A DNA stretch of 64,000 nt from positions 7,693,678 to 7,757,677 of the forward strand of contig NZ_PTJS01000001.1 of assembly GCF_002941025.1 (NCBI RefSeq). Reading direction: 5' to 3'. The position numbers were made by a program, and so were the translations under genes. The notes beneath the pieces were generated by a model. It was not told where the DNA came from. It did not search any database and worked only from the letters and a program-made list of their open reading frames with translations. Shown here piece after piece: positions 23,169-50,286 of the stretch. How positions within the stretch are numbered: position 1 is the stretch's first letter; each line of letters begins with the position of its first letter. The DNA comes from Streptomyces sp. QL37. Its GTDB lineage: Bacteria > Actinomycetota > Actinomycetes > Streptomycetales > Streptomycetaceae.

Positions 23169-23182
23169 CCCGCTACCTCACA

Positions 23183-27052: not shown

Positions 27053-28669
27053 ATGCCGGACGCGGTGGTCATCGGGGCGGGGCCGAACGGCCTCGTCGCC
27101 GCGAATCTCCTTGCCGCTGCGGGATGGAGCGTGGAGGTGCTGGAGGCGCAGCAGGAGCCGGGCGGCGCGGTCCGCAGCGACCGCGGCGTCCACCCCGACT
27201 ACGTGAGCGACCTCTTCAGCGCCTTCTACCCACTGGCCGCGGCCTCGCCGATCCTCGGAGGCCTGGAGCTCCAGGAGGAAGGGCTCAGATGGAGCCGCGC
27301 CCCGCGTGTGCTGGCGCATCCGCTGCCGGACGGCCGCTGCGCGGTCCTCGAACGCGGGGCGGAGGACACAGCGGCGGGGCTCGACACGTTCGCGGCGGGC
27401 GACGGGGCCGCCTGGCTCGATCTGTACGGCACATGGAGTCGCCTGGGTCCCGACATCCTGCGGGCCCTGTTCACCCCCTTCCCGCCGGTACGCTCCGCTC
27501 TCCGCCTCGCGGCCCGTCTCCGGGCGTCCGGCGGTCTCCGGATGGCACGGACGATGGTGCTGCCCGTGCGCCGCCTCGGGGAGGAGGAGTTCCGCGGCGA
27601 GGGGGGCAGGCTCCTCCTCGCGGGCAACGCGCTCCACGCGGACCTCGGCCCCGAGGCAGCGGGAAGCGGAGGCTACGGATGGCTCATGTCCATGCTCGGA
27701 CAGACCTACGGCTTCCCGGTGCCGGTAGGGGGAGCCGGTGCACTGACGGCGGCCCTGGTGCGCCGGCTGGAACGGCACGGCGGCGCGGTCCGCTGCGGGG
27801 AGCGCGTGACCGAGGTGGTCGTACGCGGCGGACGCGCCGTCGGAGTACGTACCGCGGGCGGCGAGGCCGTACCGGCCTCCCGTGCCGTCCTCGCCGACGT
27901 GTCCGCGCCGGCGCTGTACGGCGAACTGGTCGACGCACGGCACCTGCCCGGCGGCATGCTGAGCGACCTGCGCCGGTTCCAGTGGGACTTCGCGACGTTC
28001 AAGGTCGACTGGGCGCTGAACGGCCCCGTGCCGTGGACCGCCGGGGACGCGTCCACGGCGGGAACGGTCCACCTGGCCGACGGGGTCGACGGTCTCACCC
28101 GCTTCGCCGCCCAGATCGCGACAGGCCGGGTGCCCGACCGCCCCTTCCTCCTCTTCGGGCAGATGACCACCGCCGATGCCACGCGCTCACCCGCCGGAAC
28201 GGAGTCGGCCTGGGCGTACACCCACGTCCCGCACCACATCAAGGGGGACGCGGGCGAGGACGGCCTGACGGGTCTGTGGGACCGGCGCGAGCAGGAAGCC
28301 ATGGCCGACCGCGTGGAGAACGAAGTCGAACGCTGGGCACCGGGGTTCCGCTCCCGCATCACCTCCCGGCGTCTTCTCGCACCACCCACCATCGAGGCCA
28401 TGGACGCCAACCTGCACGGCGGCGCGATCAACGGTGGGACCGCCGCCGCGCACCAGCAGCTGGTGTTCCGCCCGACGGCCGGGACCGGGCGGCCCGAAAC
28501 ACCGGTGAAGGGCCTGTACCTGGCCTCGGCCTCGGCCCACCCGGGCGGCGGCGTGCACGGAGCCCCCGGCGCCAACGCCGCGCGTGCGGCGCTGCGCGGA
28601 CGGAGCGGGTACGGGCTGCGCGCACCGTCAATGCCGTGGGCCGTCCGCGCGGGGCGGAACACCGGGTGA
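27053..28669 (+). CDS. FAD-dependent oxidoreductase of the carotenoid desaturase / retinol saturase type
   Basis: 538 aa from ATG 27053, with GGAGG eight bases upstream. The N-terminal dinucleotide fold is complete (VVIGAGPNGLVAANLLAAAG, then VLEAQQEPGGAVRS). The C-terminus has the matching FAD-contact segment (GLYLASASAHPGGGVHGAPGANAARAAL), as in phytoene desaturase-like enzymes. These remove or add hydrogen on long polyene or isoprenoid chains. It converges on and overlaps the PfaC-like gene by 42 bp, so it may tailor the chain made by the adjacent synthase, though it also fits an independent gene. No phytoene synthase is in the window. Confidence 0.82.
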   Translation: MPDAVVIGAGPNGLVAANLLAAAGWSVEVLEAQQEPGGAVRSDRGVHPDYVSDLFSAFYPLAAASPILGGLELQEEGLRWSRAPRVLAHPLPDGRCAVLERGAEDTAAGLDTFAAGDGAAWLDLYGTWSRLGPDILRALFTPFPPVRSALRLAARLRASGGLRMARTMVLPVRRLGEEEFRGEGGRLLLAGNALHADLGPEAAGSGGYGWLMSMLGQTYGFPVPVGGAGALTAALVRRLERHGGAVRCGERVTEVVVRGGRAVGVRTAGGEAVPASRAVLADVSAPALYGELVDARHLPGGMLSDLRRFQWDFATFKVDWALNGPVPWTAGDASTAGTVHLADGVDGLTRFAAQIATGRVPDRPFLLFGQMTTADATRSPAGTESAWAYTHVPHHIKGDAGEDGLTGLWDRREQEAMADRVENEVERWAPGFRSRITSRRLLAPPTIEAMDANLHGGAINGGTAAAHQQLVFRPTAGTGRPETPVKGLYLASASAHPGGGVHGAPGANAARAALRGRSGYGLRAPSMPWAVRAGRNTG

Positions 28670-31600
28670 GGTGTGTGGTGGCCGGTCCGCCCCGGACACC
28701 ACACGCATACCCAGCCCACGCACCCGGTAGATGCAGGTGTCATCGCCCCAGAGCGACGCGTCCGCCACCGCATAGGGGCCACACTCGTCCGTTTCGCTCT
28801 CCACGATGTCCATGTCCACCCGGATCAGCCGGCTGGCCGGGGTGATCTGGCCACGATAGGTCCAGGCCGTCTCGCGGCCGGGCAGCACCGGCTCGAACCT
28901 GGGGTGCGGGATGCCGTCGCCCGCTCCCCGTTCGACGAGGTGGTACTGGAGCAGCTGGCACATGGCCTCAAGGCCCAGGGAGCCGGGCTGCACCGGGTCC
29001 TGGAAGAAGTGTGCCCGGAAGAACCAGGCGTCCGGGCGGACGTCCTTCTCCGACCGCAGCCGGCCGAGTCCCGCGCTCCCCCCGTCCGGCCAGTAGCCCG
29101 TGATCCGGTCCAGCATCAGCAGCATGGGGCCGGGGAGAGACGGCTTCCCGGCGCGGTACCGGGCGGGCCGGGCGGTCAGATCGACCGTACGGCCGCACGG
29201 TTCGTCGAGGCGTGCCCGGTCGTCCGCCGACGTCGCGAGCCCCTGCTGGTCCTCGAAGGCCGACGGAGGGAAGTAACCGAAGACCGTGGAGAGTTCGAGC
29301 ACGGGCACACCGTCGGCCGTGCACGACACCCGGAACGACTCGATGATCATGTCCCCGCTGCGCGAGACACGCGTCAGTTCGGCACGGGTACGGACCGTAC
29401 GCGTCGCCGGAGTCACCTCGCCGGTGACCGTCCCCGACCCGTCGAGGTTGCGGAAGAGCAGGTCCATGCCGGTCGTCAGCGCGCTGCCCACGTACGAGGC
29501 GAGCCACCCGCAGGGCTGCAGCGCGATCTCCATGAGCACGGCGAACGGCACGGTGTGGCCACCGCTCTGCTCGAAGTACCAGGCCTCCGCCGGTACGTCG
29601 TACTCCGCGACGACCGTGCTGCCCTCCCGCATGCCGCCCTGCGGCCCGTCCACCGAGGCGATCCGGCTCATGAAGTGGTAGGGCGGCCCGGGAAGCCGGG
29701 CCACCCTGCGGGTGCCGTCGAAGGGCTCGTACATGGCGCCGAACGCCTCGCTCGGCCTGCCCCAGGCACACGCCAGCAGCGAGGCGTAGCCGAAGGGGAA
29801 CCCGTCGGCTGCCACAGCCACCGGCCTCTCCTCCTGGTGTCCGGCCAGCCCGCCGAGCCGCGGCAGCGGCACCGGGGCTCCGCCGGCCTGGACGAGGGGC
29901 GGGCCCGAATGCCGCCAGTGAGCCAGCGGCCAGTCGGGTACCAGCCTGAGAGCCATGCCACGGCCCAGGAACGCCTTCGTCCCGTCCACCGAACCCAGCA
30001 CCTCGGCGTAGAGCGTCGGTTCCGGACCGGCCGAGACACCGCGTACGAACACCTCGTAGACGACCCGCCGGCCCTCCGGGGTCGCCTGGCCCCGGCACAT
30101 GGCCTTGTAGGGGATCCCGCTGACCGGTTCGAAGCGCCAGCCGTCCCGGTCGACGGTGAAGCCCATGACCGTCAGGTAGAACGCCATCGCCTGGAGGCCG
30201 CCCTGGAGCATCAGAGTGCCCGGCATGCAGGGGTCGTTCTTGAAGTGACCGGGGAAGAACCAGTCGTCCGGCGACAACGCGGTCTCGGCGCGCAGATAGC
30301 CCCGGCCCCACGGGCCGCCGGCCGGGTCGAAGACGGTCACCTCGTCCAGCAGCCGCAGCCGGTCCACGTCGAGCACCGGCGACCGGACATGGGCCGCCGT
30401 GGGCTCCCAGCCGGGGCCGAAGCAGTCCCACGGCCGCCCTTCCACGAGGGCCCGCACCCGGTCCGTTCCGAAACGGGTCCGTTCGCAGCGCACGGCAGGC
30501 GGGTCGAGCGGCAGGTCGTCACCGGGCGGGTGCTCGGCGGGATCCCACCGGACACCGCCGCTGCCGGCGAGCTCCGCGGGGGTGAAGAAACCTGCCTGGC
30601 CCTCACGGACACTGAGCCGGAGCTCGCCGTCCACATGACAGTCGTAGTGGAAGAAGGCCAGGCGGACGCCCTCCTCCTCCGCATGGCCGTCGACATGGAT
30701 CTCGAAGCTCAGCGTGTCACCGGCTTGCGGCGGCTCGCCGTGGAACGTCACCTCGCAGCCGAGCAGCCGGTAGGCGCGCTCGCCCCGGTTGAGGAGGTCG
30801 ACACCCAGCCAGCTGAGCAGGAGCAGATCGGCCTGGCCCGCCTCGATCAGCAGGCCGGCCGGGATGCGTCCCGTGGAGTCCAGGTACCAGCTGTCGGGCA
30901 GGACGTCGGTCTCCGTCCAGATCCTTCCGTCCGTTCGCACCGGATCCGGCAGGGTGAGCGCCGCGGGCACCGCGTCGATGCCGGTCACCCGGTCCGCGAA
31001 CAGCATGGGCGGCCCGGGCATCCGGGTCTGCACGGCGTACTCGTCCTGCTCGGCGAAGCGCGGGCCGAACAGGACGGAGACCTCACGGGAGGCGAGGTGC
31101 TCCAACTGGGCGCGGTCGAATGCCGGACCCGGCCTCGGAGCCGGCACAGACGCCGGTGGAGACCGGACGGCCGGAGGAGGTGTGACCGGGCGGGGCTGTC
31201 GTGCCGGAGCGGGATTCGGCGGCACGGCGGCCGTCAGCGCGGTGACGGCGAGCGCCGACACCCGCAGGAACCGCTGATGGGCCTCGGTGTGCCCGGCCAT
31301 GACCTCCTGGTGCAGCGCCGCGACCCGCAGACTCTGCCGGGCGACCGCGGCCCGGACACCCACCGGCCCCGGCTGCCCTGGGCCTCCGGCGGGAACGGCG
31401 GGAGCGGACGGGGTGGTGAGCCCGCCGGAGTCACGTGCCGCCGGGACGGCCGGTGCGGCGGAGTGGCCGGGCCCGCTGTCCTGCGGAACGGCGGCGGCGG
31501 AGGGCCGGCCGGGCCCCCCGTCCGGTACCGGGGCCAGCTCGGGAGCCCGGGGCAGGACGGTCACGACGGACTCCAGGGGCGGCAGGCACGGGGACCCGAT

Positions 31601-34600
31601 CATGGGAAGGGTGACGGTGGGGCCGGGCCGCGGGAGATCCGTGGCGGCCTCGGCGAGCCGGGCGAACACCTCGTCGGCCCGCACCGGCACCCCGGCGACG
31701 ACGAGTTCGGCGACCGCCAGGCACAGCTGCCTCAGCCCGGTGTCCTCCGGGGAGTCCAGCGCGACGGCCACGTGCTCCCGGTCGCCGAGCACCCGCTTGA
31801 TCCAGCCGGTGCACAGTCTCCTCGGCCCGTGCTCCACGAAGACCCGGACACCGTCGGCCCACGCCTGCTCGACCGTGGCCGCGAAGTCGATCGTGCCCAG
31901 GCCCTGGGCGGTGATCGCCTCGGCCGCCCGTTCGGCCGTCGGCCGGTACGCCTGCCCGGTGGCTCCGCTGTAGAACCGCACCCCGGGCACCTCGACCGTG
32001 GGACGGTGATGGGCTTCGCGCCACACCTCCCGGACCTCGGCCAACTCCGGTGCGTGGGCCGCCATGTCGTAGTCCAGCTCGATCGCACGGTCGGCGCCGA
32101 GCCTGGCCACGACAGCCGCGCACGCCCGGGACTCGCCGCCGATGACGCAGACCCCGGGCGCGTTCACCGCCATCAGATGGACCGCGGCCTCCGCGGCGAG
32201 CTCCGCACGGACCACGTCCAGCGGGACGCCGACCAGGTAGCTCGACCAACGGGAGCCCTGGATGCCCCGCCGCTGCCAGTAGCGCCGGACCGCCCGGAGC
32301 TCACCGGTGAGTTCGGTCGTGAACAGACCGCTGTCCCGGGTGGCTTCGTACAGCCCCGAGGCGTCCGGCCAGGCCCCCAGCGCGACCAGGGCGGCCGACT
32401 CGCCCGAGGAGTACCCGAGCGCGGCGTCCGGCCGCAGGCCGAGCACCTCACGGGTGAACACGGTGTGGACGGCGGACAGTTCGGCGGCGGCCCAGATCTG
32501 GCCGAGCACCCCGCGCTCCGGCTCCGGCCCGGAGCGCAACCGCGTGCCGAGCGCCCTGTGGGCGTCCCGGACGGCCTCCCCGAGCGACGGCAGGGCGAGC
32601 GCCAGCTCATGGCCCATCCCCGGGTACGCGGCCGAGCCGTTGGTGTACACGAACGCGGTCCCCCCGTCGACCGGCCGGTCCCGGTACAGCACATCGGCGG
32701 GACGGGGCCCGCCCTCCGTCAGCCAGCGCCGGGCGGCCGCCTTGCGGTCCGGCAGCGCGGTGCCGCCGCCGACCACGAGCGCCAGCCGGGCCGGGCCCGC
32801 GCCGGACTCGACACCCGAGTCCAGGGCGGCCAGCACCTCCCGGCGGTCGGCCCCGGAGAAGACGTGCAGACGCGGAGCCGGTCCCCGCAGCCACGGTCGA
32901 GGATCACCCGTACGCAGGCGCACGCTCGCCGAGGGCCCCTCCATCGGGGTCACCACGGCCCGCGCGGTGTGGGCGACGGCCCCGGTGTCCGCGGGCCCGC
33001 CCGGGCGCGGCACGGCGCGGTGCTGGAGCGCGAGCGCCGCGACCGCCACGGAGACCAGCCCGGACGCGGCATGAGCACGCCCGAAGGCCGACGCCGGATC
33101 GAACGCCGCGCCGGGGCCGTCGCCGATGACCATGTCGGGCTCGTCGGAGGCCCCCTCGTCCAGCAGGGCGACGACGGTGTCGCCGTCCCCGCGAGCGGTA
33201 TCCAGGGGTTTGAGGACCAGCACGACGGCCGCGTCCCCCGGATCGCCCTCGCTTCCCAGCTCGCCCAGCGCGGCCCGGTGGACCGCCTCGCAGGACAGGT
33301 CGGTGGCACCGACGAGCGCCGCGTCGGCCTCGCCCGACCGGACGGCCCGCGCCGCGGCCTCCAGCGCCACCAGCCCGGACGCCTCCTCCGCGGACACCGC
33401 GAACGACGGTCCTGCCAGGTCCAGTTGGGTGCTGATCCGGCTCGCCACGAGGTTCGGCATGCTGCCCACCACCCCCTCCGCGGTCATGGGCGGCACGAAC
33501 GCGTCCTGGGCGGGGCCGGCCGGCGGCACGGTCACGCCCCGCCCGGCCGCCTGCTCCAGCCAGTGCGGGACCCGCCAGCGGGCGCCCGCCCGGGCCACCT
33601 CGGGGTCCACCCCCATGCCGATGACCACCATGGTCCGTTCGCGAGGCAGGGCCACCGACCGTGCGGCCTCCCGGGCGGCCTCCAGCACCAGAAGCTGGTG
33701 GCGTACGGTCCGCTCCAGTCCCGACGGCGGGAAGCACAGGCCCGTGAGCTCCACGGCGATCTCCGTGGCGGGACCGCGTCGTTCACCGCCCAGCACCGCC
33801 CGGCGGAAGTCCTCGACGCAGGTCCCGTCGCCGACCCGGGCGCCGAGAGCGACGATCGCCACCGCCCGGCCGCCGGAAGGTCCGTCCGGCCGCCGTACGG
33901 CAGTCGTCGCGCGGTGCGGCGGCCGCGGCACGGAGACCGGGGGAGCGTCCTCCGCGTGGTCCACGACCAGGTGGGCGTTGGTGCCGCCGAACCCGAAGGC
34001 GCTCACCGCCGCCCTGCGTGGCCCCACCCACTCCTCCGGAGCGGTCAGTACCCGCAACGGCGTGCCCGCCAGCGCGTCCAGCGGCCGATCCGCGCCGAGC
34101 GTCGCCGGACGGACCCCCGCGCGCAGCGCACCGAGCACCTTGAGCAGCCCGGCCACGCCCGCAGAAGCCAGCAGGTGCCCGACGTTCGACTTCGCCGAGC
34201 CGATGGGCACGTCGTCAGCGGCCCCGAAGACCCGGGCCATGCCGCGCACCTCCACCGCGTCGCCGACCGGCGTCCCCGTCGCGTGGCACTCGACGAGCGA
34301 CACCGACTCAGGAGCGATGCCCGCCATGTCGTAGGCCAGGCGCATGGCCCGTACCTGACCCTCCTCCGACGGGCTGATCAGCCCGGAACCGCGCCCGTCG
34401 TTCGACAGCCCCACACCGCGGATCACCCCGAACACGGGCAGTCCGGCGGCGCGCGCCTCGGACAGCCGCATCAGCGCGACGAACCCGGCGCCCTCGCCGT
34501 GCACCAGCCCGTCCGCGTCCCGGTGGAAGGGGCGGCTGCGCCCCGTGCGGCTCGTCGCGGACAGCCCGCAGAACCCCACGTGCAGATAGAGGGGATCCGG

Positions 34601-35278
34601 TCGGCTGACCCCGCCGGCCACCATCAGGTCGGCCGTTCCGTCGTGCAGCCGGTCGCACGCCAGCTTGATCGCGTACAACGAGGACGCGCAGGCCGCGTCG
34701 AGGGCCCACGCCCCCGCGCCGAGCCCGAGCGCACGGGCCGCGAGCCGGGCGGGCAGCCCGGAGGAGAAGCGGTTGCGTGCGTCGGGGCGCGCCGTGTGCT
34801 CACCCCTCAGGAGGGCGTCACGGAGCGGGGGCCGCTGCGCCGACAGCCAGACGTGTTCGGAGAAGACGGCCCCGGCCTGAGTGGGGTACGAGAGGTTCCC
34901 GATCACCAGACCCCCGCGCGGCAGCGGGCCCGACCGGCCCGCCTCCGTCAGCGCCTGCCGCACCCCGTACAGGACCCAGTGGAAGAGCGGGTCCAGCGAG
35001 GCGATCCGCTCCGGGGGGATCCCGAAGCCGCTCGGATCGAAGACGGACTCGAACCCCTCGACGTAACCGCCGACATCGGTCCAGGTGCGGTCGAGGTGGT
35101 CGTCGACCGAGCCCATGGCCCAGCGGCGCGGCAACCGCCAACGGCCCGCCGGGGCAGCCGATACCGTGGTGCGGCCGGCGGCGACGTTCTCCCAGAACGT
35201 GTCCGGGTCGAGCGCCCCGGGCAGCACGCAGCCCCGGCCGACGACGGCGATCGGTTCGAAATCCATACGGGTACTCAC
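28628..35278 (-). CDS. PfaC-like synthase subunit: KS-CLF-AT-DH-DH
   Basis: 2216 aa from GTG 35278 (ATG 35266 possible). Domains: KS about 8-435 with Cys197 (DAACASS), His332 (ECHATGT) and His368 (SNVGHL); a second KS-like domain about 445-800 in which Glu632 replaces the active Cys (SAEEASG), i.e. a chain-length factor; AT about 870-1190 with Ser957 in GYSSGES; a Pro/Ala linker; then two FabA-type double-hotdog dehydratases with HFKNDPCMPG (His1678) and HFFQDPVQPGS (His2090). Marine bacterial PfaC lacks the AT, which is on PfaB there, so this protein looks like PfaC with a PfaB-type AT inserted. It should elongate and dehydrate the chain carried by the PfaA-like ACP. It lies 30 bp after that gene, in one operon. 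Confidence 0.9.
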   Translation of the reverse strand: MSTRMDFEPIAVVGRGCVLPGALDPDTFWENVAAGRTTVSAAPAGRWRLPRRWAMGSVDDHLDRTWTDVGGYVEGFESVFDPSGFGIPPERIASLDPLFHWVLYGVRQALTEAGRSGPLPRGGLVIGNLSYPTQAGAVFSEHVWLSAQRPPLRDALLRGEHTARPDARNRFSSGLPARLAARALGLGAGAWALDAACASSLYAIKLACDRLHDGTADLMVAGGVSRPDPLYLHVGFCGLSATSRTGRSRPFHRDADGLVHGEGAGFVALMRLSEARAAGLPVFGVIRGVGLSNDGRGSGLISPSEEGQVRAMRLAYDMAGIAPESVSLVECHATGTPVGDAVEVRGMARVFGAADDVPIGSAKSNVGHLLASAGVAGLLKVLGALRAGVRPATLGADRPLDALAGTPLRVLTAPEEWVGPRRAAVSAFGFGGTNAHLVVDHAEDAPPVSVPRPPHRATTAVRRPDGPSGGRAVAIVALGARVGDGTCVEDFRRAVLGGERRGPATEIAVELTGLCFPPSGLERTVRHQLLVLEAAREAARSVALPRERTMVVIGMGVDPEVARAGARWRVPHWLEQAAGRGVTVPPAGPAQDAFVPPMTAEGVVGSMPNLVASRISTQLDLAGPSFAVSAEEASGLVALEAAARAVRSGEADAALVGATDLSCEAVHRAALGELGSEGDPGDAAVVLVLKPLDTARGDGDTVVALLDEGASDEPDMVIGDGPGAAFDPASAFGRAHAASGLVSVAVAALALQHRAVPRPGGPADTGAVAHTARAVVTPMEGPSASVRLRTGDPRPWLRGPAPRLHVFSGADRREVLAALDSGVESGAGPARLALVVGGGTALPDRKAAARRWLTEGGPRPADVLYRDRPVDGGTAFVYTNGSAAYPGMGHELALALPSLGEAVRDAHRALGTRLRSGPEPERGVLGQIWAAAELSAVHTVFTREVLGLRPDAALGYSSGESAALVALGAWPDASGLYEATRDSGLFTTELTGELRAVRRYWQRRGIQGSRWSSYLVGVPLDVVRAELAAEAAVHLMAVNAPGVCVIGGESRACAAVVARLGADRAIELDYDMAAHAPELAEVREVWREAHHRPTVEVPGVRFYSGATGQAYRPTAERAAEAITAQGLGTIDFAATVEQAWADGVRVFVEHGPRRLCTGWIKRVLGDREHVAVALDSPEDTGLRQLCLAVAELVVAGVPVRADEVFARLAEAATDLPRPGPTVTLPMIGSPCLPPLESVVTVLPRAPELAPVPDGGPGRPSAAAVPQDSGPGHSAAPAVPAARDSGGLTTPSAPAVPAGGPGQPGPVGVRAAVARQSLRVAALHQEVMAGHTEAHQRFLRVSALAVTALTAAVPPNPAPARQPRPVTPPPAVRSPPASVPAPRPGPAFDRAQLEHLASREVSVLFGPRFAEQDEYAVQTRMPGPPMLFADRVTGIDAVPAALTLPDPVRTDGRIWTETDVLPDSWYLDSTGRIPAGLLIEAGQADLLLLSWLGVDLLNRGERAYRLLGCEVTFHGEPPQAGDTLSFEIHVDGHAEEEGVRLAFFHYDCHVDGELRLSVREGQAGFFTPAELAGSGGVRWDPAEHPPGDDLPLDPPAVRCERTRFGTDRVRALVEGRPWDCFGPGWEPTAAHVRSPVLDVDRLRLLDEVTVFDPAGGPWGRGYLRAETALSPDDWFFPGHFKNDPCMPGTLMLQGGLQAMAFYLTVMGFTVDRDGWRFEPVSGIPYKAMCRGQATPEGRRVVYEVFVRGVSAGPEPTLYAEVLGSVDGTKAFLGRGMALRLVPDWPLAHWRHSGPPLVQAGGAPVPLPRLGGLAGHQEERPVAVAADGFPFGYASLLACAWGRPSEAFGAMYEPFDGTRRVARLPGPPYHFMSRIASVDGPQGGMREGSTVVAEYDVPAEAWYFEQSGGHTVPFAVLMEIALQPCGWLASYVGSALTTGMDLLFRNLDGSGTVTGEVTPATRTVRTRAELTRVSRSGDMIIESFRVSCTADGVPVLELSTVFGYFPPSAFEDQQGLATSADDRARLDEPCGRTVDLTARPARYRAGKPSLPGPMLLMLDRITGYWPDGGSAGLGRLRSEKDVRPDAWFFRAHFFQDPVQPGSLGLEAMCQLLQYHLVERGAGDGIPHPRFEPVLPGRETAWTYRGQITPASRLIRVDMDIVESETDECGPYAVADASLWGDDTCIYRVRGLGMRVVSGADRPPHTSPGVPPRADGPRH

Positions 35279-35308
35279 TTCACAGCGGGGCGGAGTCCGG
35301 GGACGAGG

Positions 35309-41374: not shown

Positions 41375-41430
41375 GGTCTCTCCTCGGAGTGGGGCTGTCG
41401 TCGTGGGCGCCTTCGGAGCGCCGGGCCCGC

Positions 41431-43014
41431 TCACGCAAGCTCGCGCGGCGTGTACGTGAACGCATCGGGCGTCAACGGGACGCCGTAGGTCCGCAGTTGG
41501 TGGGCCCGGGTGAGCACTGCGGCGCCTTCGAGCAGGTTGAGCGCGATCTGCACCACTGACCGGTTAGCCGGGTCGGCCAGCACGGTGCCCTCGACCCACC
41601 GGTTGAACGCGCCCATCGCCGGCCCGCACCAGATCTGGTAGTCGGCCCGCCGGGACACGTCCCCGGTGATCGCCCACCGGCTCGAACCGCCCAGGTACCA
41701 GCGGAAGACCAGGGCCATCCGGTGTTTCGGGTCGGCCTCCGCGCGGGTGATCTCCGCGGGATCGCGCTGCTCCCAGAACATGCGGGTCCGCTGCCAGATC
41801 TCGCCGAACGGGGCGCGCAGCACGTCACGTTCGATCGGGACGCGCAGCTCGGACGGGATCTCCTCGAGCGAACCGTGCGCCCGGTACGCCGCGTGGAGCC
41901 GGCCCGCCCGCTGGGCGAACATCGTTCCCCGCGAGAGAACCTGCAACTTCACACCGAGTTCGAACATGTCGGCCGCCGGCGCCATGGCCACATCCGCGAT
42001 GTCCGCGTCGCAGAGCATCGCCTTCGCCTCGTCGGACAGGCCGGCCTCGACGGCCGTCTGGTTCACCGACCCGATGACCACGTAGGACGCACCGAGGGCG
42101 AAGGCGGCGGCCACCGCGTCCGGTGTGCCGAGGCCGCCGGCCGCACCGACGCGGACCGGCCGGCGGTAGCCGAACCGCCGGCACAGGACGTCACGCAGGA
42201 GGGTGATCCGCGGCAACAGGGCCGACAACGGCCGGTTGTCGGTGTGTCCGCCGCTGTCCGCCTCCACGGTGATGTCCTCGGCCACCGGCACCCGGGCCGC
42301 CAGCTCCGACTCCTCCCGGGTCAGTTCGCCCTGGGCGACCAGCGAGCTCAGCAGCGCGGCCGGGGCGGGGGAGAGGAACCTCTCGGCCACCTCGGGCCGG
42401 GAGACCTTCGCGAACACCCTCGTACGCCGGACGACGTCGCCGTCCGCGCCCCGGCGCAGCCCCCGGGCCGAGCACAGCACGACGGCAGGGGTCAGCTCCA
42501 TGAACGCCGACGCGGAGATCCGGGGGACGCCGCAGCGCAGCAGCAGCTCGGCGACGCGCCACTCCAGCTCCGGTTCGGCCGGTGAGTGGATGAGGTTCAC
42601 GCCCCAGTTCCCGCGCGGCCCCAGCTCCTGGCCCAGTGCGTGCACGGCCCGCTCCACCTCGGGGTACGCCAGACCTCCCGCGCCGAAGAAACCGAGCATG
42701 TCCGCCCGGGCCATCGCCGACACCATCTCCGTGGTCGCGATGCCGTTCGCCATCTCGCCCGCGACATAGGGGAAGCGGACGCCGTGCGCCTCGCAGAAGG
42801 TGCGGCCGCCGAGCCACTCGGGATACAGCGGCGGCAGCGTACCGAGCACCGGCCCTCCCGGCACAGGACCCGTCGCGAGCCCCAGCTCACGGCCGTCCGG
42901 CCCGCTGATCACGTGGACGGGTTCCCTGATCCGCCGGGCACAGGCCGCGATCCCCTCCGGGGAGAGGGACGGCGGGGACGCGGCGGGGGAGCCGGGAGCT
43001 GCGAGGACGGACAC
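41431..43014 (-). CDS. pfaD: PfaD-type trans-acting enoyl reductase
   Basis: 527 aa from GTG 43014 (GGAG upstream). It is a TIM-barrel flavoenzyme of the 2-nitropropane dioxygenase-like PfaD family: FPYVAGEMANGIATTEMVSAM near the start, then GFFGAGGLAYPEVERAV, ITVEADSGGHTDNRPLSALLP (conserved His of the barrel), and VGAAGGLGTPDAVAAAFALGASYVV for FMN phosphate binding. The C-terminal helical part (FEQ-like WQRTRMFWEQRDPAEITRAE; WYLGGSSRWA) is typical. In PUFA synthases it selectively reduces enoyl double bonds in trans. It overlaps an in-frame upstream GTG of the PfaA-like gene by 4 nt, so the operon is tight. Confidence 0.94.
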   Translation of the reverse strand: MSVLAAPGSPAASPPSLSPEGIAACARRIREPVHVISGPDGRELGLATGPVPGGPVLGTLPPLYPEWLGGRTFCEAHGVRFPYVAGEMANGIATTEMVSAMARADMLGFFGAGGLAYPEVERAVHALGQELGPRGNWGVNLIHSPAEPELEWRVAELLLRCGVPRISASAFMELTPAVVLCSARGLRRGADGDVVRRTRVFAKVSRPEVAERFLSPAPAALLSSLVAQGELTREESELAARVPVAEDITVEADSGGHTDNRPLSALLPRITLLRDVLCRRFGYRRPVRVGAAGGLGTPDAVAAAFALGASYVVIGSVNQTAVEAGLSDEAKAMLCDADIADVAMAPAADMFELGVKLQVLSRGTMFAQRAGRLHAAYRAHGSLEEIPSELRVPIERDVLRAPFGEIWQRTRMFWEQRDPAEITRAEADPKHRMALVFRWYLGGSSRWAITGDVSRRADYQIWCGPAMGAFNRWVEGTVLADPANRSVVQIALNLLEGAAVLTRAHQLRTYGVPLTPDAFTYTPRELA

Positions 43015-43047
43015 GGAGAGGCTCCAACGGGAGAGGACGTCTGCTGG

Positions 43048-44193
43048 TCAGGCGTTCCGGGCGGACGGGAAGGCGGTCACGGATGCGTCCGGCGAGCCGG
43101 CGAGCGCCCGGCCGGGCGGGGCCAGACCGGACCAGAGGTAGTCGAGGTCCACCGGGGCGGACGTGGCCGAGGGTCCCAGCGACGACCTGACACGGGTGTC
43201 GTCGAACCGCCTCCGGTGGGCGAGGTAGGCCGTCATGCCCGGGTAGAAGTCCAGCAGCGCCTCCAGCGCCGACGCGGCGTCCGGCTTGGTGGCGACCAGT
43301 TCGATCGAGAGCGGGACGAGCTGTTCCAGCAAGGTCACGACCGTGGGTACGGGCACGTCGCGATCATGGACGACGTGGTACGTGTCGACCCCTCCCGAGG
43401 GCGTCCGGCCGGCCAGCCGCACCATCACCTCAGCCGCGTGCTCCACCTGCAACAGGTTCAGGTGGCCGTGCGGGTGCCCCACCGTACGGACGCGTGGCCG
43501 GCCGGGGCCGTGAGGGTCCGCGGCACCGCGCGCGTCACGCAGGATCCGCTCGATGACCAGCAGCGGATGCGAGGGCAGCTCGGGGTGCGGCGGCATGTCG
43601 GAGACCAGGATGCTCGGCCGCAGGACCAGCGCCGGGCGGCGGTGCTCCCTGCACCACGTGTGGACGAGCAGCTCCGCCTCGTACTTGGAGCGTTCGTAGG
43701 CGTTCTCGAAGCCACAGGCATCGTCCAGCTCGTCCTCGTACGCCACCCCCTCACGCCGTGCCCCGGCCACGAAGGCCGTGCTCACGTGGTGGACCACGGG
43801 TCGCCGGCTGCCCGCGGCGGCCAGCTCCAGCAGGTGCCGGGTCCCTTCGACATTGGTCCGGCGCAGTTCGGGGAGGTCGCCCTCCAGGTTGATGCTGCCC
43901 GCACTGTGCCAGATCGCGTCGATGCCGTCGGCCAGCTCCTGGAACGCCCGCGTGGACAATCCCAGCCGGGGCTGGGCGAGATCAATGTCCACCACCCGCA
44001 ACCGGGCGGGGAGCCCGGAGGTGAACGCCTCGGTGGCGCCGGTCAGTTCGAAGAACCGGGTGATGCGGTGCAGAGCGTCTCCCGACCCCGCGTGGGCCAG
44101 GACCGTGAGCGACCGGTTCGTGTCGAGCAGGCGGCGCAACAGGCGCAGTCCGAGGAATCCGGTGGCGCCGGTGAGGGCGACATGCACGACCAT
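43048..44193 (-). CDS. Extended SDR, thioester-reductase-like (acyl chain release)
   Basis: 381 aa from ATG 44193; GGAG lies very close, so GTG 44187 is also possible. The N-terminal Rossmann motif is VALTGATGFLGLRLLRRLL. Catalytic residues are visible as Ser138 (HHVSTAF), Tyr166 and Lys170 (YERSKYE). Spacing and the substrate-side sequence match the NAD-binding-4 / thioester reductase group that releases thioester-bound acyl chains as aldehydes or alcohols; the protein is free-standing rather than fused to a carrier. It is first in the synthase operon, 33 bp ahead of pfaD, paralleling the reductase of heterocyst glycolipid clusters. An alternative is an epimerase-like tailoring enzyme. Confidence 0.8.
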   Translation of the reverse strand: MVVHVALTGATGFLGLRLLRRLLDTNRSLTVLAHAGSGDALHRITRFFELTGATEAFTSGLPARLRVVDIDLAQPRLGLSTRAFQELADGIDAIWHSAGSINLEGDLPELRRTNVEGTRHLLELAAAGSRRPVVHHVSTAFVAGARREGVAYEDELDDACGFENAYERSKYEAELLVHTWCREHRRPALVLRPSILVSDMPPHPELPSHPLLVIERILRDARGAADPHGPGRPRVRTVGHPHGHLNLLQVEHAAEVMVRLAGRTPSGGVDTYHVVHDRDVPVPTVVTLLEQLVPLSIELVATKPDAASALEALLDFYPGMTAYLAHRRRFDDTRVRSSLGPSATSAPVDLDYLWSGLAPPGRALAGSPDASVTAFPSARNA

Positions 44194-44962
44194 GGCTCCA
44201 AGGCTTCGAAAGGGACTGGCCCGCGACCGGGCGGGGACGGGCTGCCGCTGCTGCGGCGACGGGAGCGGAACGGGACGCCCGGCCGTCCCACGGTGCGGAG
44301 CGTCACCCGGCGGCCGTGGTGCGAGCGGCTCGATCCGTCCGGCCGGTCCGGTGCGGCGAGTACCCGCCGGTCCCCCCGACGCCCCCAGCGTCGCCGGGGG
44401 CTTCTCGGGCCCCTCCCCGGGGCCAGATGATCTCCAGCGGCACGCCACACGATGTCAGACAGCGGGCCGGGCGGAAGCCTCGATCCGACCTGCTCACCCG
44501 AACGAAGTACGCCGCGTCGTGACGGGCCGACCTGCACCGACCGGCGGAATCCCGTCGCAGGCCGGGGCGTCGGGACGCTCGGGGGTGATGCCACAGAGCC
44601 GGAGGCGGGCGGAGCCCCGTCCCCCCTTCGAGGGATCTTGCGGACGGTGTTCCGGGACGGCCTTCCTGGGTGCGTCCGCGCCGCCGGCGGCGGGGTGCGG
44701 GCGGCAGCAGGCCAGTCACCGCAAGGTGGACGGGCTGCTCGTGGGTCCGGAGGCGGATGTGGCGGTCCACGGCGGACGGTGGCGACGGGATTCCGGTGCC
44801 GGCCGGCGCCACCGCGGGCGGTGGTCATCCTGAGTGGTCGGGCGGGTGCGGCCGGGCTGCCCGGCCCGGTGCCCGGCCTGCCGGCCGGTCCGCCGCGCTC
44901 CGCCCGTCCCCTCTTCCCGTCGGCCCGCCCGCCGTTGGCACGAACAGGAGCCCTGAAGCCCC
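44194..44962. other. Divergent intergenic region of the lipid cluster
   Basis: This 769-bp gap between the reductase and acyltransferase genes is the largest in the window. I see no protein-like frame, tRNA, operator palindrome or strong promoter hexamers. It should hold the promoters of both directions. Confidence 0.4.
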
Positions 44963-46321
44963 ATGACCGTCTCCGATCAGCCCGACCGGTCCACCCGGTC
45001 CGCCCCGTCGGACACGTCCGTCCGGCCCGGTCGGTCCGTTCCCTCGCCCCGCCACCCGACCCACTCCGTCGACCGCGCCTTCCTCAACCTGGAACGGCGC
45101 CGGCCCGACGTCCGTTGGGACGCCGGTGGCGTCGCGTACCTCAGCGGTCCGCCCCCGGCCCTGTCGGACCTCCGCGCGTATGTCGGCTTCCGCCTGGGCG
45201 AACTGCCCCTTCTCACCAGCCGTGTCGAGGGCGGGCGGCGGCTCCGGTGGCAGCCGGACGCCGACTTCTCCGTCGACCGGCACGTGCACGAGGTGGTCGC
45301 CGACGGCCCCGACGGGTGGGACGCCGCCCTGCACACCGCGCTCAACGCCCCCTTCGCGCCCGGCGCGTACTGGGGGGTCTGGCTGGTCCACGGTCACGCA
45401 CCCGACGCGTACGCGGTGTGCTACCGCTTCCGCCACGCCTGCCAGGACGGTTCGGCCGCCGCCATGACCTTCCGGACGATGCTGGGAGGGGGAGAGCTCT
45501 CGGCCCGCCCGGTGCCGGGCAGGAGCCGGGGGACCGGGGTGCCACGGCGGGTGGGTGCGGCCGTCGGGCTGGCCACGAAGTTCGTGGCCGGCTCCCTCGT
45601 CGGCCGACGACACCGCCCCGGGGTCGCCTTCGTCCCCTCAGGGGAGCAACGGCTGTGGCGGGGCCGCGTACCGGTGGACACCCTCCGCCGGATCGGTACG
45701 GCGCGCGGCGGATCGGCCCATGACGTACATCTTGCCGCGCTCGCCGGGGCGTTGTCGGTCTGGTCGGACCGCTCCGGCGTACCGCTCCCACGGGTGACGG
45801 CCGTGCTGCCCGTTGACGCGCGCCGCAGCGACGAGGACCAGACGTGGGGGAACCGCTGCTTCGCCCTGCCGCTGGAGCTGCCCGTGCGGGCCGCCTCACG
45901 GCGCCCGGACGGGTCGCGGGACGGGGAGGCGTCCCTGCGGCGACTGGACGACGTCATGACGACGACCCGGAAGCTGCGGGGCGAGGCGTGGCGGCAGGCC
46001 ATTCAGGACCTGGTCCGCTTCATGCCGGGACGCCCCACCGACTGGTACCTGCGAAGGGTGCTCTCCCCGCGCGTCACCAACGTCATGGCGACCTCCATGC
46101 CGCTCGCCGACAAGGGGAGCCTGGGGGAGACGCAGGTGACCGGCACCGCACTGCTGCCCCTGCTCGTGCCCGGGCACCTCTTCGGGGTGGGGCTGTCGTT
46201 CTTCGGCGACTGGGCCGAGGTGTCCTTCGTCGCCGACCGCGCCCTTCCGATGGGCGAACTGCTGCCGGAGCTTTGGGAGCAGGCCGTGGGGGAGCTGGAG
46301 GAGAGCTCGGCGCCCGCGTGA
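44963..46321 (+). CDS. WS/DGAT-like acyltransferase (wax ester synthase / condensation-type fold)
   Basis: 452 aa from ATG 44963; AGGAG lies 13 nt upstream. After a disordered 35-residue start, the fold matches wax ester synthase / diacylglycerol acyltransferases: SVDRAFLNLERRRP, WQPDADFSVDRHVHEV, and the active-site region FRHACQDGSAA with His158, Asp162 and Gly163. The usual HHxxxDG has Arg instead of the first His, but the catalytic second His is kept. The C-terminal half has VTAVLPVDARR, WGNRCFALPLELPV and VTNVMATSMPL. Such enzymes esterify an alcohol with an acyl-CoA or acyl carrier. Next to a thioester reductase this suggests ester formation with the reduced chain, an inference. Confidence 0.78.
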   Translation: MTVSDQPDRSTRSAPSDTSVRPGRSVPSPRHPTHSVDRAFLNLERRRPDVRWDAGGVAYLSGPPPALSDLRAYVGFRLGELPLLTSRVEGGRRLRWQPDADFSVDRHVHEVVADGPDGWDAALHTALNAPFAPGAYWGVWLVHGHAPDAYAVCYRFRHACQDGSAAAMTFRTMLGGGELSARPVPGRSRGTGVPRRVGAAVGLATKFVAGSLVGRRHRPGVAFVPSGEQRLWRGRVPVDTLRRIGTARGGSAHDVHLAALAGALSVWSDRSGVPLPRVTAVLPVDARRSDEDQTWGNRCFALPLELPVRAASRRPDGSRDGEASLRRLDDVMTTTRKLRGEAWRQAIQDLVRFMPGRPTDWYLRRVLSPRVTNVMATSMPLADKGSLGETQVTGTALLPLLVPGHLFGVGLSFFGDWAEVSFVADRALPMGELLPELWEQAVGELEESSAPA

Positions 46322-46352
46322 GCACGGTTGCCGGGCCCTCGGACGGCGGGGA

Positions 46353-47735
46353 TCAGGCGGCGTCGGCCGCCGGAGCGGGTCCGGCCACCCCGGGCAGCGG
46401 CAGGAGAGCACCGCGTGCTCGGCGCCTGCCCGCCCGGAGTTCCCGGCGGAGGGCTCTTCGGTAGGAGCGGACGTCGATCTCGATGCCGTGACGGTAGGTG
46501 GACACGTATGTCTTGTCATGGCGGCGCCGTTCACGGGCGATCGCCCGCTCCATGTCCGCCGGTGAGGGAAGGGCGACCTTCCCCTCCATCAGGTCGGTGA
46601 TCCATTCCGCCTGCGGTTCGAGCAACGGGAAGGCCGCACCGGCGGGTTGGGCGAGTCCCATGAAGTAGAGCCCGGGGAGCCGCGGCGCAACCGTGCGCAG
46701 ATAGAGCTCCGTGCGGCCGGCCGGGGCGGCGAAGACGGAGGGCTCCAGGAAGGGGAAGGAGATCGAGTAACCGGTGGCGTACACCACGGCGTCCACGGGT
46801 TCGTGGCTGCCGTCCGTGAAGGCCGCCGTCTCCCGGCCGAAGGAGCTGACGCCGGGCTTGGGGGTCACCGCGCCCCGGGCCAGCTGGACGAGGAGTTCGT
46901 CCGAGGTGGAGGGGTGGGCGGCGAGCGGGCCCCGGACAGGTCGGGGGAGCCCGTAGTGGGCCGGGGCGCCACGGGTGAGCCGCAGGAGGAGCGCCATCGC
47001 CGGCCCCTTGAGGGGCAGCGGAAGGCGGGACAGCGGGCTCCACACCAGGTGGTCCGCCGGCCGGCCGAGCAGCATCTTGGGGAACACATGTGCCGTGTCG
47101 CGTGCGGAGAGGTACGTACGCGCGGCCGTACGGGAGATCTCCGCCGCGATCTCGCACGCGGAGTTGCCCATGCCGATCACCAGCACCCGCAGCCCGGCGT
47201 ACGGCTCGGGGGAGCGGTAGTCGTGCGAGTGCACAGCGGGCCCCTCGAACCCCTCGGCCCCGGGGACGGCCGGGTCGGGGAGACGGGGGTCCCAGTGGTG
47301 ACCGTTGGCCACCACCACCTCGGTGTAACGCCGCGTCTCCGCCTCCGCGTCCGTGCCCCCGCGGCGCCGGTGGGAGACCTCCCAGCCGCCGTCGTCCAGG
47401 GACCGCACCGAGGTGACCTCGGTACCGGGCGTGATGTGGCGGTGCAGGCCGAAGGACGTCGCGTAGTCCTCCAGGTAGGCGAGGACCTTGCTGTGGTGCG
47501 GAAAGACCGGATAGGTCTCCGGCATGGCCAGCGAGGAGAAGGACATGCTCTCCTTCGAGATGTTCGCGTGCAACGACGCGTACACCCCCGACATGCCGTT
47601 GTCGTTGCCGTACCGCCAGAGCCCGCCGATCTTCGAACCGGCCTCGAAGCAGTCGAACGGAACGTTCCGTGAGGCGAGGACCTTGCTCGCCGCCAGGCCG
47701 GACGGCCCCGCACCGATCACGCACGTTCTCCGCAT
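46353..47735 (-). CDS. Flavin-containing monooxygenase
   Basis: 460 aa from ATG 47735; upstream in-frame sequence is not protein-like. FAD motif CVIGAGPSGLAASKVL at residues 4-20, then FDCFEAGSKIGGLWRY. The FMO signature appears as HSHDYRSPEPYAG, and the NADPH motif is VLVIGMGNSACEIAAEIS. The second ATG-type motif is VVYATGYSISFPFLE. Class B monooxygenases of this kind oxygenate N or S atoms or insert oxygen next to a ketone (Baeyer-Villiger). It converges with the acyltransferase gene 31 bp away and may tailor the product, but membership in the cluster is only positional. Confidence 0.87.
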   Translation of the reverse strand: MRRTCVIGAGPSGLAASKVLASRNVPFDCFEAGSKIGGLWRYGNDNGMSGVYASLHANISKESMSFSSLAMPETYPVFPHHSKVLAYLEDYATSFGLHRHITPGTEVTSVRSLDDGGWEVSHRRRGGTDAEAETRRYTEVVVANGHHWDPRLPDPAVPGAEGFEGPAVHSHDYRSPEPYAGLRVLVIGMGNSACEIAAEISRTAARTYLSARDTAHVFPKMLLGRPADHLVWSPLSRLPLPLKGPAMALLLRLTRGAPAHYGLPRPVRGPLAAHPSTSDELLVQLARGAVTPKPGVSSFGRETAAFTDGSHEPVDAVVYATGYSISFPFLEPSVFAAPAGRTELYLRTVAPRLPGLYFMGLAQPAGAAFPLLEPQAEWITDLMEGKVALPSPADMERAIARERRRHDKTYVSTYRHGIEIDVRSYRRALRRELRAGRRRARGALLPLPGVAGPAPAADAA

Positions 47736-48105
47736 GGCTGACCGACCTTCCCTCGGGTGGACGTGACTGCGCCGGAACGCGCGTGCACGGGACCGCACGA
47801 GGGTGGGCGTGGTCCGTCGGGCCGGCCCGGACGACGGTGCCCGGCCGTGCACCCCGGCCCCGGTCACGCTAGTCGTCCCAGCCCGCTCGGGGCCCGTGCG
47901 CGGCGGTGAACCCGTCGCACGCGTGACATGTCGTGCAACGCGTTGACGCCCACGTGTCTCCGGCGCCGTTTCCGCTGCCTGGTCCGCTCGTTGACCACGA
48001 GCGGACCGGTCGAGCCGCCGAGGGCCGGCCGGACGAACTCGCCGACTGGAAGACGCGGACCGGTTCCGCGGCCATCGGGAAGACCTGGCACGACGGAGCA
48101 GCGCG
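47736..48105. other. Divergent intergenic region between monooxygenase and ABC exporter genes
   Basis: No gene in 370 bp. An 8-bp palindrome GACATGTC (47925-47932) lies 10 bp before a TTGACG (47943-47948) that could be a -35 for the ABC genes, but the -10 is poor. Confidence 0.35.
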
Positions 48106-48720
48106 ATGGACGTCAGAGATGTGCACCACTCCTACCGGAAGCACGCCGTTCTGCGGGGCGTCGACCTTCGGCTGCGGCCCGGCACGCTCGCCGGGATCGT
48201 CGGGGAGAACGGCGCCGGCAAGACGACTCTGCTGAAGGCCCTCGCCGGTGAACTCAGGCCGGACCGGGGGTCGGTGCACCATGCCGGCAGGTTCGGTTAC
48301 TGCCCGCAGACCGTGGTCCTCGACGACTCCTTCACCGTCCGCCAGCACCTCGACTTCTTCCGGAGCGCGTTCGGGCTCCGGGACCTGCGACGGGCCGGAG
48401 AGGTGATGGAGACCCTGGCCTTCACCGAGTACCTCGACCGGCGTGCCGGGCAACTCAGCGGCGGCTCGCGGCAGAAGCTGAACCTCACCCTTGCGTTGAT
48501 GCACGATCCGGACGTGCTGCTGCTGGACGAGCCCTACCAGGGCTTCGACTGGGAGACGTATCTGCGCTTCTGGGAGCTGGCGACGAGTCTGCGCGACGCC
48601 GGACGCTCGGTGCTCGTCGTCTCGCATCTCGCGTACGACATCGGCCGGCTGGACGTGCTGTGGCGCCTGGACGGCGGGCGCCTCACCCTTCAGGAACCGC
48701 GTGCGGAGGCGACGGCATGA
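48106..48720 (+). CDS. ABC-2 exporter ATP-binding protein
   Basis: 204 aa, short for the family but complete. ATG 48106 follows GACGGAGCAG. Walker A is GENGAGKTT (33-41), the Q-loop GYCPQ, the signature LSGGSRQKLN, and Walker B VLLLDEPYQGFD, followed by the H-loop VVSHLAYD. It overlaps the permease gene by 4 nt. Small ATPases of this sort pair with ABC-2 type membrane proteins to export lipids, antibiotics or peptides, so it could export the product of the neighbouring lipid cluster. Confidence 0.92.
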   Translation: MDVRDVHHSYRKHAVLRGVDLRLRPGTLAGIVGENGAGKTTLLKALAGELRPDRGSVHHAGRFGYCPQTVVLDDSFTVRQHLDFFRSAFGLRDLRRAGEVMETLAFTEYLDRRAGQLSGGSRQKLNLTLALMHDPDVLLLDEPYQGFDWETYLRFWELATSLRDAGRSVLVVSHLAYDIGRLDVLWRLDGGRLTLQEPRAEATA

Positions 48721-49574
48721 GGCGGCACTGGTCCCTCTTCACCACGGCGTCCAAGTACGCGTTGATCGGGCATGCCCGCAACCGGTTCGCGATGCTGCTG
48801 GTGGTCGCGTACATCCCGGTGTGGATCGGCCTCGCCTATGTGACCATCCCCGACGAGCCAGCGCCGTTCCGGCTGCGGGCCACGGGCGAGATCCTGTCCC
48901 CGCCGGGGAACCACCTCACCCAGATCACCGGTGCGCTGAACGCGGTCACCCTGATCGCCGGGTTCATGATGTTCGCCGCCACCTTCACGGGCGGTGCGTT
49001 CGACCGCCGCCTGGCCATGGCGGGATACCCGAGATATCACCTCGTCCTCGCCAAGCTCTCCGCGCTCACGCTGGTCTGTGCCGCCGTCGCCGCGTACGCC
49101 ACGGCAGCCGCCGGGTTCGCCTGGGCACCTCGCCAGCCCCTCATGCTCGCCGCCGCCCTGTTCTGCGCCGCCCTGACCTACGGCGCCTTCGGAGTGGTCT
49201 TCGGATCGGTGCTCCGTCGCGAGGTGGAGGGCATGTTCGCCATTCTGATGATCAGCATCCTCGACGTCGCCCTCCAGAACCCCCTCTCCAGCTCGGGGTC
49301 GGACAGCGCCGTCGTGCGCTTCCTGCCGACGTACGGAGCCGTGCAGGCGAGCATGTCCGCGGCCTTCTCCGACGCGTCGGTGCATGAGGGCCTCCTGATC
49401 CAGGTCCTCTGGCTCACCGGCGCCGCGTTCGCCGGTTTCCTGGTCTTCCGCCGCCGCACCCGCGACGCCCTTCCACCGGGCAGGCCCGGTGTTCCGGCTC
49501 CCTCCGGGCCCACACCGGCCGAAGGAGCCCAAGGGCCCGCGCCCACAACGGCCGTGACCAAGGGAAGCCGTTGA
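48717..49574 (+). CDS. ABC-2 type exporter membrane protein
   Basis: 285 aa from ATG 48717 (ATGA overlap with the ATPase stop). Six membrane segments are visible (MLLVVAYIPVWIGLAYV; NAVTLIAGFMMFAATF; LSALTLVCAAVAAYATAAAGF; MLAAALFCAALTYGAFGVVFGSVL; FAILMISILDVALQNPL; LIQVLWLTGAAFAGFLVF) and a Pro-rich cytoplasmic tail. The arrangement is ABC-2. I do not recognise the substrate class. Confidence 0.85.
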   Translation: MRRHWSLFTTASKYALIGHARNRFAMLLVVAYIPVWIGLAYVTIPDEPAPFRLRATGEILSPPGNHLTQITGALNAVTLIAGFMMFAATFTGGAFDRRLAMAGYPRYHLVLAKLSALTLVCAAVAAYATAAAGFAWAPRQPLMLAAALFCAALTYGAFGVVFGSVLRREVEGMFAILMISILDVALQNPLSSSGSDSAVVRFLPTYGAVQASMSAAFSDASVHEGLLIQVLWLTGAAFAGFLVFRRRTRDALPPGRPGVPAPSGPTPAEGAQGPAPTTAVTKGSR

Positions 49575-49645
49575 TCGTTCTGTAGCCGCGGGCGCTGACG
49601 CGGTGCCCGGACCGACACGTTCTTCGTGCAAGGAGCACCACCCTC

Positions 49646-50167
49646 ATGACCCTTTCGCGCACCGTCCGGCGCACCGTCCTCACCGCAGCTGTCCTGTCCG
49701 TCTCCGCCCTGGCCGTCCCCTCACCCGCACAGGCCGCCCCGCTGCCCCCGGCCTGTCAGGAGGCGCTGCTCGAAACCCTCGACAAGTTCCCCGTGGTCGA
49801 CTTCACGGTCCCCGACAAGGCACAGAACACGATGCTGGCCGAGGTCCTGGGGCTGAGCGAGGCCGACCAGGCGGTCCTCACCGAGGCGGCCTGCGCGGCC
49901 TGGAACACCTGGGCGACCCAGAACGGTCAGGCGGTCGCCGCGGACCTGGACACCCGCTACCGGAACGCGGCGGGACCCGTGTGCAACAAGTTCGCCAAGT
50001 CCTCCCTGGCGACCATCAAGAAGTACGCCCCGAATGTGCCCGCCGCGACCCGGGAGCTGGAGAAGCTGGCCAAGAAGGTCTGGAAGAACTCCATGGAGAA
50101 GCTGGCCGCGGAGGCCACCAACGCCGACTGCCGTACCGCCTACACAGGGGCGAAGGCCGGCTGGTAG
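49646..50167 (+). CDS. Small secreted protein with four cysteines, function unknown
   Basis: 173 aa from ATG 49646, with AAGGAG upstream. A clear Sec signal peptide (RRTVLTAAVLSVSALAVPSPAQA) ends at the AQA-AP site, about residue 31. The mature part is about 140 aa, mostly helical in pattern, with four cysteines (PPACQEA, AACAAW, GPVCNKF, ADCRTAY) that could make two disulfides, and a Lys-rich C-terminal third. I recognise no family. It lies 71 bp after the ABC exporter and is followed by a terminator, so it may be cotranscribed with the exporter or stand alone. Confidence 0.75.
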   Translation: MTLSRTVRRTVLTAAVLSVSALAVPSPAQAAPLPPACQEALLETLDKFPVVDFTVPDKAQNTMLAEVLGLSEADQAVLTEAACAAWNTWATQNGQAVAADLDTRYRNAAGPVCNKFAKSSLATIKKYAPNVPAATRELEKLAKKVWKNSMEKLAAEATNADCRTAYTGAKAGW

Positions 50168-50244
50168 CGGAACCGGGCGGCGAGGCCGGCCCGCGCCCAG
50201 GGGGCGACGCGTGTGCGACAGGCCGCACCGTGCGGTGTTCCGGA

Positions 50245-50286
50245 CACGGCGAAGCCCCGCCGCACTCCTGGCGGGGTCTCGCCGTG
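50245..50286 (+). terminator. Terminator after the small secreted protein gene
   Basis: A long, nearly perfect hairpin from CACGGCGA...GCCCCGCC to GGCGGGG...TCGCCGTG with an 8-nt loop and one small internal mismatch, 78 bp past the stop. Confidence 0.78.

Follow-up and report, generated by a model that had tools for sequence, protein, structure and literature searches.

A 64,000-nucleotide stretch of the 8.78-Mb genome of Streptomyces sp. QL37 (hereafter the window) contains a gene cluster that combines a Pfa-like synthase with a thioester-reductase-type short-chain dehydrogenase/reductase (SDR; here TR), a WS/DGAT-like acyltransferase, an ABC/ABC-2 transporter pair, and a small secreted protein that we call X173 (Table 1). 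Our best reading, which we hold with about even confidence, is that these genes encode synthesis, reductive release, esterification, and export of a lipid, with X173 as a secreted partner. Across related loci, membership of the cluster is nested: the synthase and TR are shared most widely, followed by the WS/DGAT gene, then X173 with the ABC-2 pair, and finally a flavin monooxygenase (FMO).

Table 1. Features of the cluster and its surroundings, in window coordinates
Feature	Position	Strand	Support
FAD-dependent oxidoreductase, judged outside the cluster	27053..28669	+	PF01593
Fused PfaB/PfaC-like synthase, KS-CLF-AT-DH-DH (pfaBC)	28628..35278	-	Pfam ketoacyl synthase, acyl transferase, two FabA stretches
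PfaA-like synthase, KS-AT-ACP-KR-DH, one ACP	35309..41434	-	TIGR02813
PfaD-family enoyl reductase	41431..43014	-	TIGR02814
TR, thioester-reductase-type SDR (~381 aa), first gene of the operon	43048..44193	-	PF07993, TIGR01746, 4u7w profile
Non-coding block, moderately conserved (limits approximate), TR-WS/DGAT gap	44380..44530	.	
WS/DGAT-family acyltransferase, divergent from the pfa/TR operon	44963..46321	+	
FMO-type flavin monooxygenase, optional member	46353..47867	-	PF00743
ABC transporter ATPase	48106..48720	+	PF00005
ABC-2-like membrane subunit (ABC2), isoprenoid-associated lineage	48717..49574	+	PF12698 below cut-off
X173, small secreted protein, signal peptide and four Cys	49646..50167	+	

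The initial annotation placed PfaD-, PfaA-, and PfaC-like proteins in one operon with a thioester-reductase-like SDR, and this arrangement is borne out by shared strand, family matches, and tight junctions (by coordinates, 33 bp between TR and pfaD, a 4-bp overlap of pfaD and pfaA, and 30 bp between pfaA and pfaBC). PfaD scores 675 bits against TIGR02814 (curated cut-off, 449) and the PfaA-like protein scores 1181 bits against TIGR02813 (curated cut-off, 1010). In PfaA, the Cys-His-His triad of the ketosynthase (KS), the Ser of the acyltransferase (AT), the Ser of the ACP, and the Ser and Tyr of the ketoreductase (KR) are kept in all 28 homologues compared, and the His and Asp of the C-terminal dehydratase (DH) are kept in 27, the remaining one having a gap. 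In PfaBC, both FabA-type DH His residues and the AT Ser are kept in 23 of 23 homologues and the first KS triad in 22, with one gap. The second KS carries Glu in place of Cys in 22 of the 23 (again one gap), which is what a chain-length factor (CLF) should show. With these residues kept, the synthase looks functional.

The AT of PfaBC (residues 946-1165) precedes the two DH motifs (~1678 and ~2090) and bears a GYSxG motif in 21 of 23 homologues and GFSxG in the other 2. GYSxG is the motif described for PfaB, as opposed to the GHSxG of malonyl ATs; this exchange of His for Tyr is published as characteristic of bacterial PfaB, which is described as a terminal acyltransferase with influence on what is finally made (PMC12895367). 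Judged by this AT, the PfaC-like protein is a fusion of PfaB and PfaC. Marine PUFA synthases (Pfa types A and B) share the PfaA, PfaB, PfaC, and PfaD domain set, with PfaB and PfaC fused in the window, but have tandem ACPs and a pfaE phosphopantetheinyl transferase (PPTase) in the cluster. Here, by contrast, there is one ACP, and five PPTase-type matches occur in the genome with none inside the window. A polyunsaturated chain is only one possibility; with two FabA-type DHs and an enoyl reductase, the chain could equally be saturated, partly unsaturated, or hydroxylated.

A single-ACP protein with the order KS-AT-ACP-KR-DH also resembles enediyne-type iterative polyketide synthases, and pattern searches found one ACP motif in 27 of 28 PfaA homologues (zero in the other). 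These features would suit a cluster whose product is not a lipid but a polyene polyketide, a reading that we consider very improbable: PfaD, the KS-CLF pair, the PfaB-type AT, and the two FabA-type DHs fit secondary-lipid synthases, and these include single-ACP members in the 2011 catalogue of Pfa-like synthases (PMC3098273). That catalogue lists Streptomyces synthases of unknown product, among them the Type L secondary-lipid synthase of S. coelicolor and S. ghanaensis (Shulse and Allen 2011), whose product is likewise given as unknown (PMC3098273). Type L resembles the present synthase in its fused pfaBC, its pfaD at the 5' side, and its actinobacterial members, but its pfaBC is described as KS-CLF-DH2-AT, whereas the order here is KS-CLF-AT-DH2 (PMC3098273). 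None of the loci recovered in our searches came from S. coelicolor. The QL37 genome holds a second Pfa-like cluster (G000:C1:1624992-1656500; L090 and L091), in which PfaD is 50-51% identical, KS-bearing PfaA/PfaC-like matches (33-35%) lie upstream, and a PPTase match is found nearby at 1638637.

TR, with its start at ~44193, matches PF07993 at 3.5e-45. Its best NCBIfam match is the thioester-reductase family TIGR01746 (132.3 bits), and because this score falls below the curated cut-off of 213.35, we grade thioester-reductase activity as probable and predicted. The glycine motif of the SDR fold (GATGFLG), HVST, and YxxxK are invariant in 19 sequences, and the best PDB alignment of a TR profile is the MxaA terminal reductase (4u7w; E 2.1e-31). 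The likeness extends over the Rossmann core and YxxxK; the difference is that TR is a free-standing SDR, whereas the MxaA reductase is a domain of a megasynthase. The MxaA reductase makes a primary alcohol. No ACP was detected in TR by Pfam at 0.001.

An acyltransferase of the WS/DGAT type near the synthase had also been proposed, and it is present, although Pfam by itself misses the call (WS_DGAT_cat, 17.8 bits against a cut-off of 23.6; E 0.003). Pfam lists the WS_DGAT domain for many homologues of this protein. Within its HHxxxDG motif, the second His (H158), which we take to be the catalytic one, and the Asp and Gly (D162 and G163) are invariant in 26 sequences, and the first His is Arg here and variable in relatives. 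Structural alignment with the wax ester synthases AbWSD1 (7nxg) and that of Marinobacter (6chj) covers both halves of the protein and the H-x(3)-DG motif, supporting the WS/DGAT fold. It differs from these two in its low identity to them (17-19%), in being tied to a secondary-lipid synthase, and in being missed by the Pfam model. Enzymes of this fold can use other acceptors. The acyltransferase might accordingly act like PapA5 or a starter condensation domain, moving a synthase-bound or primary acyl chain to a hydroxyl or amine of another metabolite while TR makes a separate aldehyde or alcohol; we rate this a minority possibility, well behind the formation of a wax-like ester.

The distribution of the acyltransferase ties it closely to the synthase. 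A PfaD-like match at 1e-80 is present in 90 of the 392 genomes compared within the genus, and an orthologue of the WS/DGAT gene (at least 57% identity) occurs in 19, which are exactly the genomes with PfaD at 71% identity or higher; none of the other 373 has one. Two further matches, at 34-35% identity, are paralogues. One of these (L191) stands in the same run as genes for an acyl-CoA dehydrogenase and a TR-like protein, a TR-WS/DGAT pair apart from Pfa synthases, Pfa matches being absent in the fetched stretch. At two other loci, a second, diverged WS/DGAT gene adjoins the conserved copy (L098:6420-7847 and L102:6601-8049). By PfaD we fetched 30 other loci at roughly 62% identity or more and two outgroups at ~51%; TR lies upstream of pfaD in 23 of the 31 loci in the former class, the window counted. 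A conserved synthase with freely varying accessory genes is thus not what was found (TR, 23/31; WS/DGAT, 19/19), and a conserved association of Pfa-like synthase, reductive release, ester formation, and export is supported.

A second set of 26 named loci (L094-L173) came from a scan that selected on TR (at least 59% identity and at least 9 kb upstream, a gene being counted at 75% or more of its length); in it, WS/DGAT is found in 20 loci, X173 in 14, the ABC ATPase in 12, ABC2 in 12, and FMO in 9. Because named loci and numbered genomes overlap (e.g., L099 and G279), the two samples are non-independent. Remnants of FMO in two further loci (L095 and L098) and of the ABC pair in one (L106) indicate repeated loss. 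In L113, L116, L124, and L140, TR and the synthase are kept and no WS/DGAT gene was found within 10 kb; some lineages thus dispense with the ester step. These four relatives, together with the presence of the transporter and X173 in only about half of the named loci, would be expected if the product were a long-chain alcohol or aldehyde in free form, with the acyltransferase acting in storage or housekeeping and the ABC genes and X173 in a neighbouring function. We find this unlikely, since only cluster genomes have the WS/DGAT orthologue (19/392) and since X173 adjoins the WS/DGAT gene without an ABC/ABC2 pair in G147, G170, L103, and L105, which ties X173 to the ester gene.

Outside Streptomycetaceae, two loci (L136 and L142) carry TR, WS/DGAT, pfaD, and pfaA in line. 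Compared with the window, their acyltransferases are 27-30% identical and their PfaD proteins 65-67%, and a PfaD tree, which leaves six entries unassigned to any group (contig too short; L104 and L115), sets them apart from the Streptomyces group with at least two forced changes. From these identities and the tree, we read the WS/DGAT gene as having been recruited repeatedly. An Amycolatopsis locus (L138) has a Pfam-confirmed WS/DGAT gene beside TR and close to Pfa-like KS matches; no PfaD match was found there.

An ATPase and membrane-subunit pair is present that probably forms the expected ABC-2 exporter. The ATPase (PF00005, 1.2e-28) has Walker A, LSGG, and Walker B motifs, and the ABC2 subunit has hydrophobic segments and a weak match to PF12698 (E 0.0021; 17.6 against a cut-off of 31.6). 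ABC2 relatives occur in 108 of the 392 genomes. Isoprenoid genes (squalene/phytoene synthase, cis-prenyltransferase, polyprenyl synthase, or terpene synthase) lie within 4.5 kb of ABC2 in 18 of 20 sampled loci at 60-66% identity and in 8 of 20 at 37-50%, counts in which five sampled loci (L192, L193, L195, L201, and L205) match themselves because seven of the 10 queries were taken from them. An isoprenoid gene is Pfam-confirmed in each of these five, and seven sampled loci are confirmed overall. The closer sample comprised 20 loci in 18 genomes from 26 matches (first G234 to G383), leaving out the X173 carriers G160, G220, and G146 as well as G242, G334, and G259; the more distant 20 were picked by the analyst. 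The same queries gave no match across 974 kb of Pfa loci, window included. The exporter lineage of the cluster thus often accompanies isoprenoid genes, and here it accompanies a proposed fatty-ester pathway. In three isoprenoid-associated loci (L203, L204, and L231), a distant WS/DGAT-like gene (27-29%) lies ~2.5 kb or less from the ABC2 relative, hinting at esterified isoprenoids. Near the ABC/ABC2 pair of L205 and L206 is a fusion of a CrtC/lipocalin-like portion and a polyprenyl synthase, and L211 has a similar ORF.

The initial annotation ended the cluster at 49574 and did not list X173; we extend the cluster to 50167, adding this gene. X173 has 173 aa, a signal-peptide-like N terminus, and Cys at positions 37, 83, 113, and 162. 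A 1,016-aa ORF at 49603 was rejected, its first ~190 codons being a wrong-frame reading. No Pfam family was matched, and PDB comparison gave no match of weight and no relative of solved structure; the predicted model is helical (pLDDT 81). There are 118 homologues, and wherever a source gives an organism name for one, it is Streptomyces. X173 is single-copy in the QL37 genome and present in 23 of the 392 genomes, including 16 of the 19 cluster genomes at 74% identity or more. Seven copies have lower identity (49-67%), one of them in a cluster genome (G195) ~130 kb from the cluster, and five of these seven loci have ABC and ABC2 relatives alongside. ABC2 is adjacent to X173 in 19 of the 23 genomes, the exceptions being G147, G170, G195, and G350. 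Other neighbours at X173 loci are squalene/phytoene-synthase/cis-prenyltransferase fusions (Pfam-confirmed in L183 and L185, predicted in L186) and polyprenyl synthases (L184, L187, L188, and L189). X173 was not found within 4.5 kb of ABC2 in any of the 40 further ABC2 loci sampled, the closer 20 of them picked with X173 carriers set aside; it therefore partners only part of the ABC2 family, and the ABC/ABC2 pair mostly works without it. We tentatively suggest, with more doubt than conviction, that the pair could be a previously unrecognised Streptomyces system that deposits very hydrophobic neutral lipids extracellularly, with X173 as the founding member of a secreted lipid-carrier family present at part of the loci. 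Lineages would then swap the attached lipid genes: squalene/phytoene-synthase/cis-prenyltransferase fusions, polyprenyl or terpene synthases, or, here, Pfa-TR-WS/DGAT genes for a surface wax built from secondary-lipid chains.

Two flavoenzymes had been counted as cluster genes. The FMO is clearly present (PF00743, 2e-79; true start probably at ~47735) and is an optional rather than a constant member, as the counts above convey. The FAD oxidoreductase (PF01593, 9e-12), labelled as a desaturase/saturase, converges on pfaBC, the two genes overlapping at their 3' ends; we exclude it, as no match at 1e-10 was found in any of 26 other loci spanning the position (each reaching at least 15 kb beyond pfaD; two are 51% outgroups). 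Between TR and the WS/DGAT gene, a gap of ~770 bp includes the block at 44380..44530, which is moderately conserved in an alignment of 16 loci and is a possible promoter or operator. An Rfam search of 44100-50300 at E 0.1 gave no matches. Elsewhere in the window, 10501-24284 holds two rhamnogalacturonate-lyase-family genes, a GH43-type gene, a LacI-type regulator, and a sugar ABC transporter, probably a pectin-use island.

A functional parallel may be the heterocyst glycolipid (hgl) cluster of cyanobacteria, described as having a Pfa-like synthase, the thioester reductase HglB, and an exporter required for deposition (PMC8064123). HglB, however, combines an ACP with the reductase (PMC8064123), whereas TR has no ACP, and the hgl island has a glycosyl transferase (PMC11804610), in whose place a WS/DGAT acyltransferase is found here. 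Since neither the ACP of HglB nor the glycosyl transferase was found, the cluster is not an hgl member; similarly, the "glycolipid-type" label given earlier does not fit, as typing of the genes from 25.5 to 53.5 kb turned up no glycosyltransferase. We propose by analogy that the cluster may work in an hgl-like manner, with esterification replacing glycosylation. The zeamine secondary-lipid synthase also joins a Pfa-like synthase to a TR domain (PMC13291983) but differs from the present system, whose synthase showed no aminotransferase domain and whose typed genes include no NRPS partner.

From gene content, catalytic residues, the acyltransferase fold, conservation, and nesting, we infer the reactions, their order, the chain, and its transport as follows. 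PfaA, PfaBC, and PfaD would assemble a long acyl chain in iterative rounds, with the one ACP of PfaA as its carrier; TR would cleave the acyl-ACP thioester reductively, giving an aldehyde or, like MxaA, a primary alcohol; and the WS/DGAT enzyme would form a wax-like ester from this alcohol and an acyl-CoA or acyl-ACP. In QL37 and many of its closest relatives, the ABC/ABC-2 pair would export the ester and X173 receive it, and in QL37 and a subset of relatives, FMO would oxidise the product. The least certain points in this scheme are which acceptor the acyltransferase uses and whether TR goes beyond the aldehyde.

We found no paper in the open literature on the Pfa-TR-WS/DGAT-exporter gene combination. 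The terms "thioester reductase" and "wax" are absent from the main text of PMC3098273, as are "wax" and "DGAT" from that of a 2026 survey of hybrid PUFA-synthase clusters, which describes Streptomyces clusters with NRPS partners (PMC13291983). The exporter-X173 module could prove the more novel part. Our analysis sorts the neighbouring genes into cluster members and non-members, links the exporter to isoprenoid loci and to the X173 family, and gives one Pfa-like clade a precise prediction that can be tested, namely that an ester is exported in which the synthase supplies the alcohol half. If true, it would tie the orphan clusters of many strains to lipids outside the cell, perhaps those of aerial hyphae or spores.
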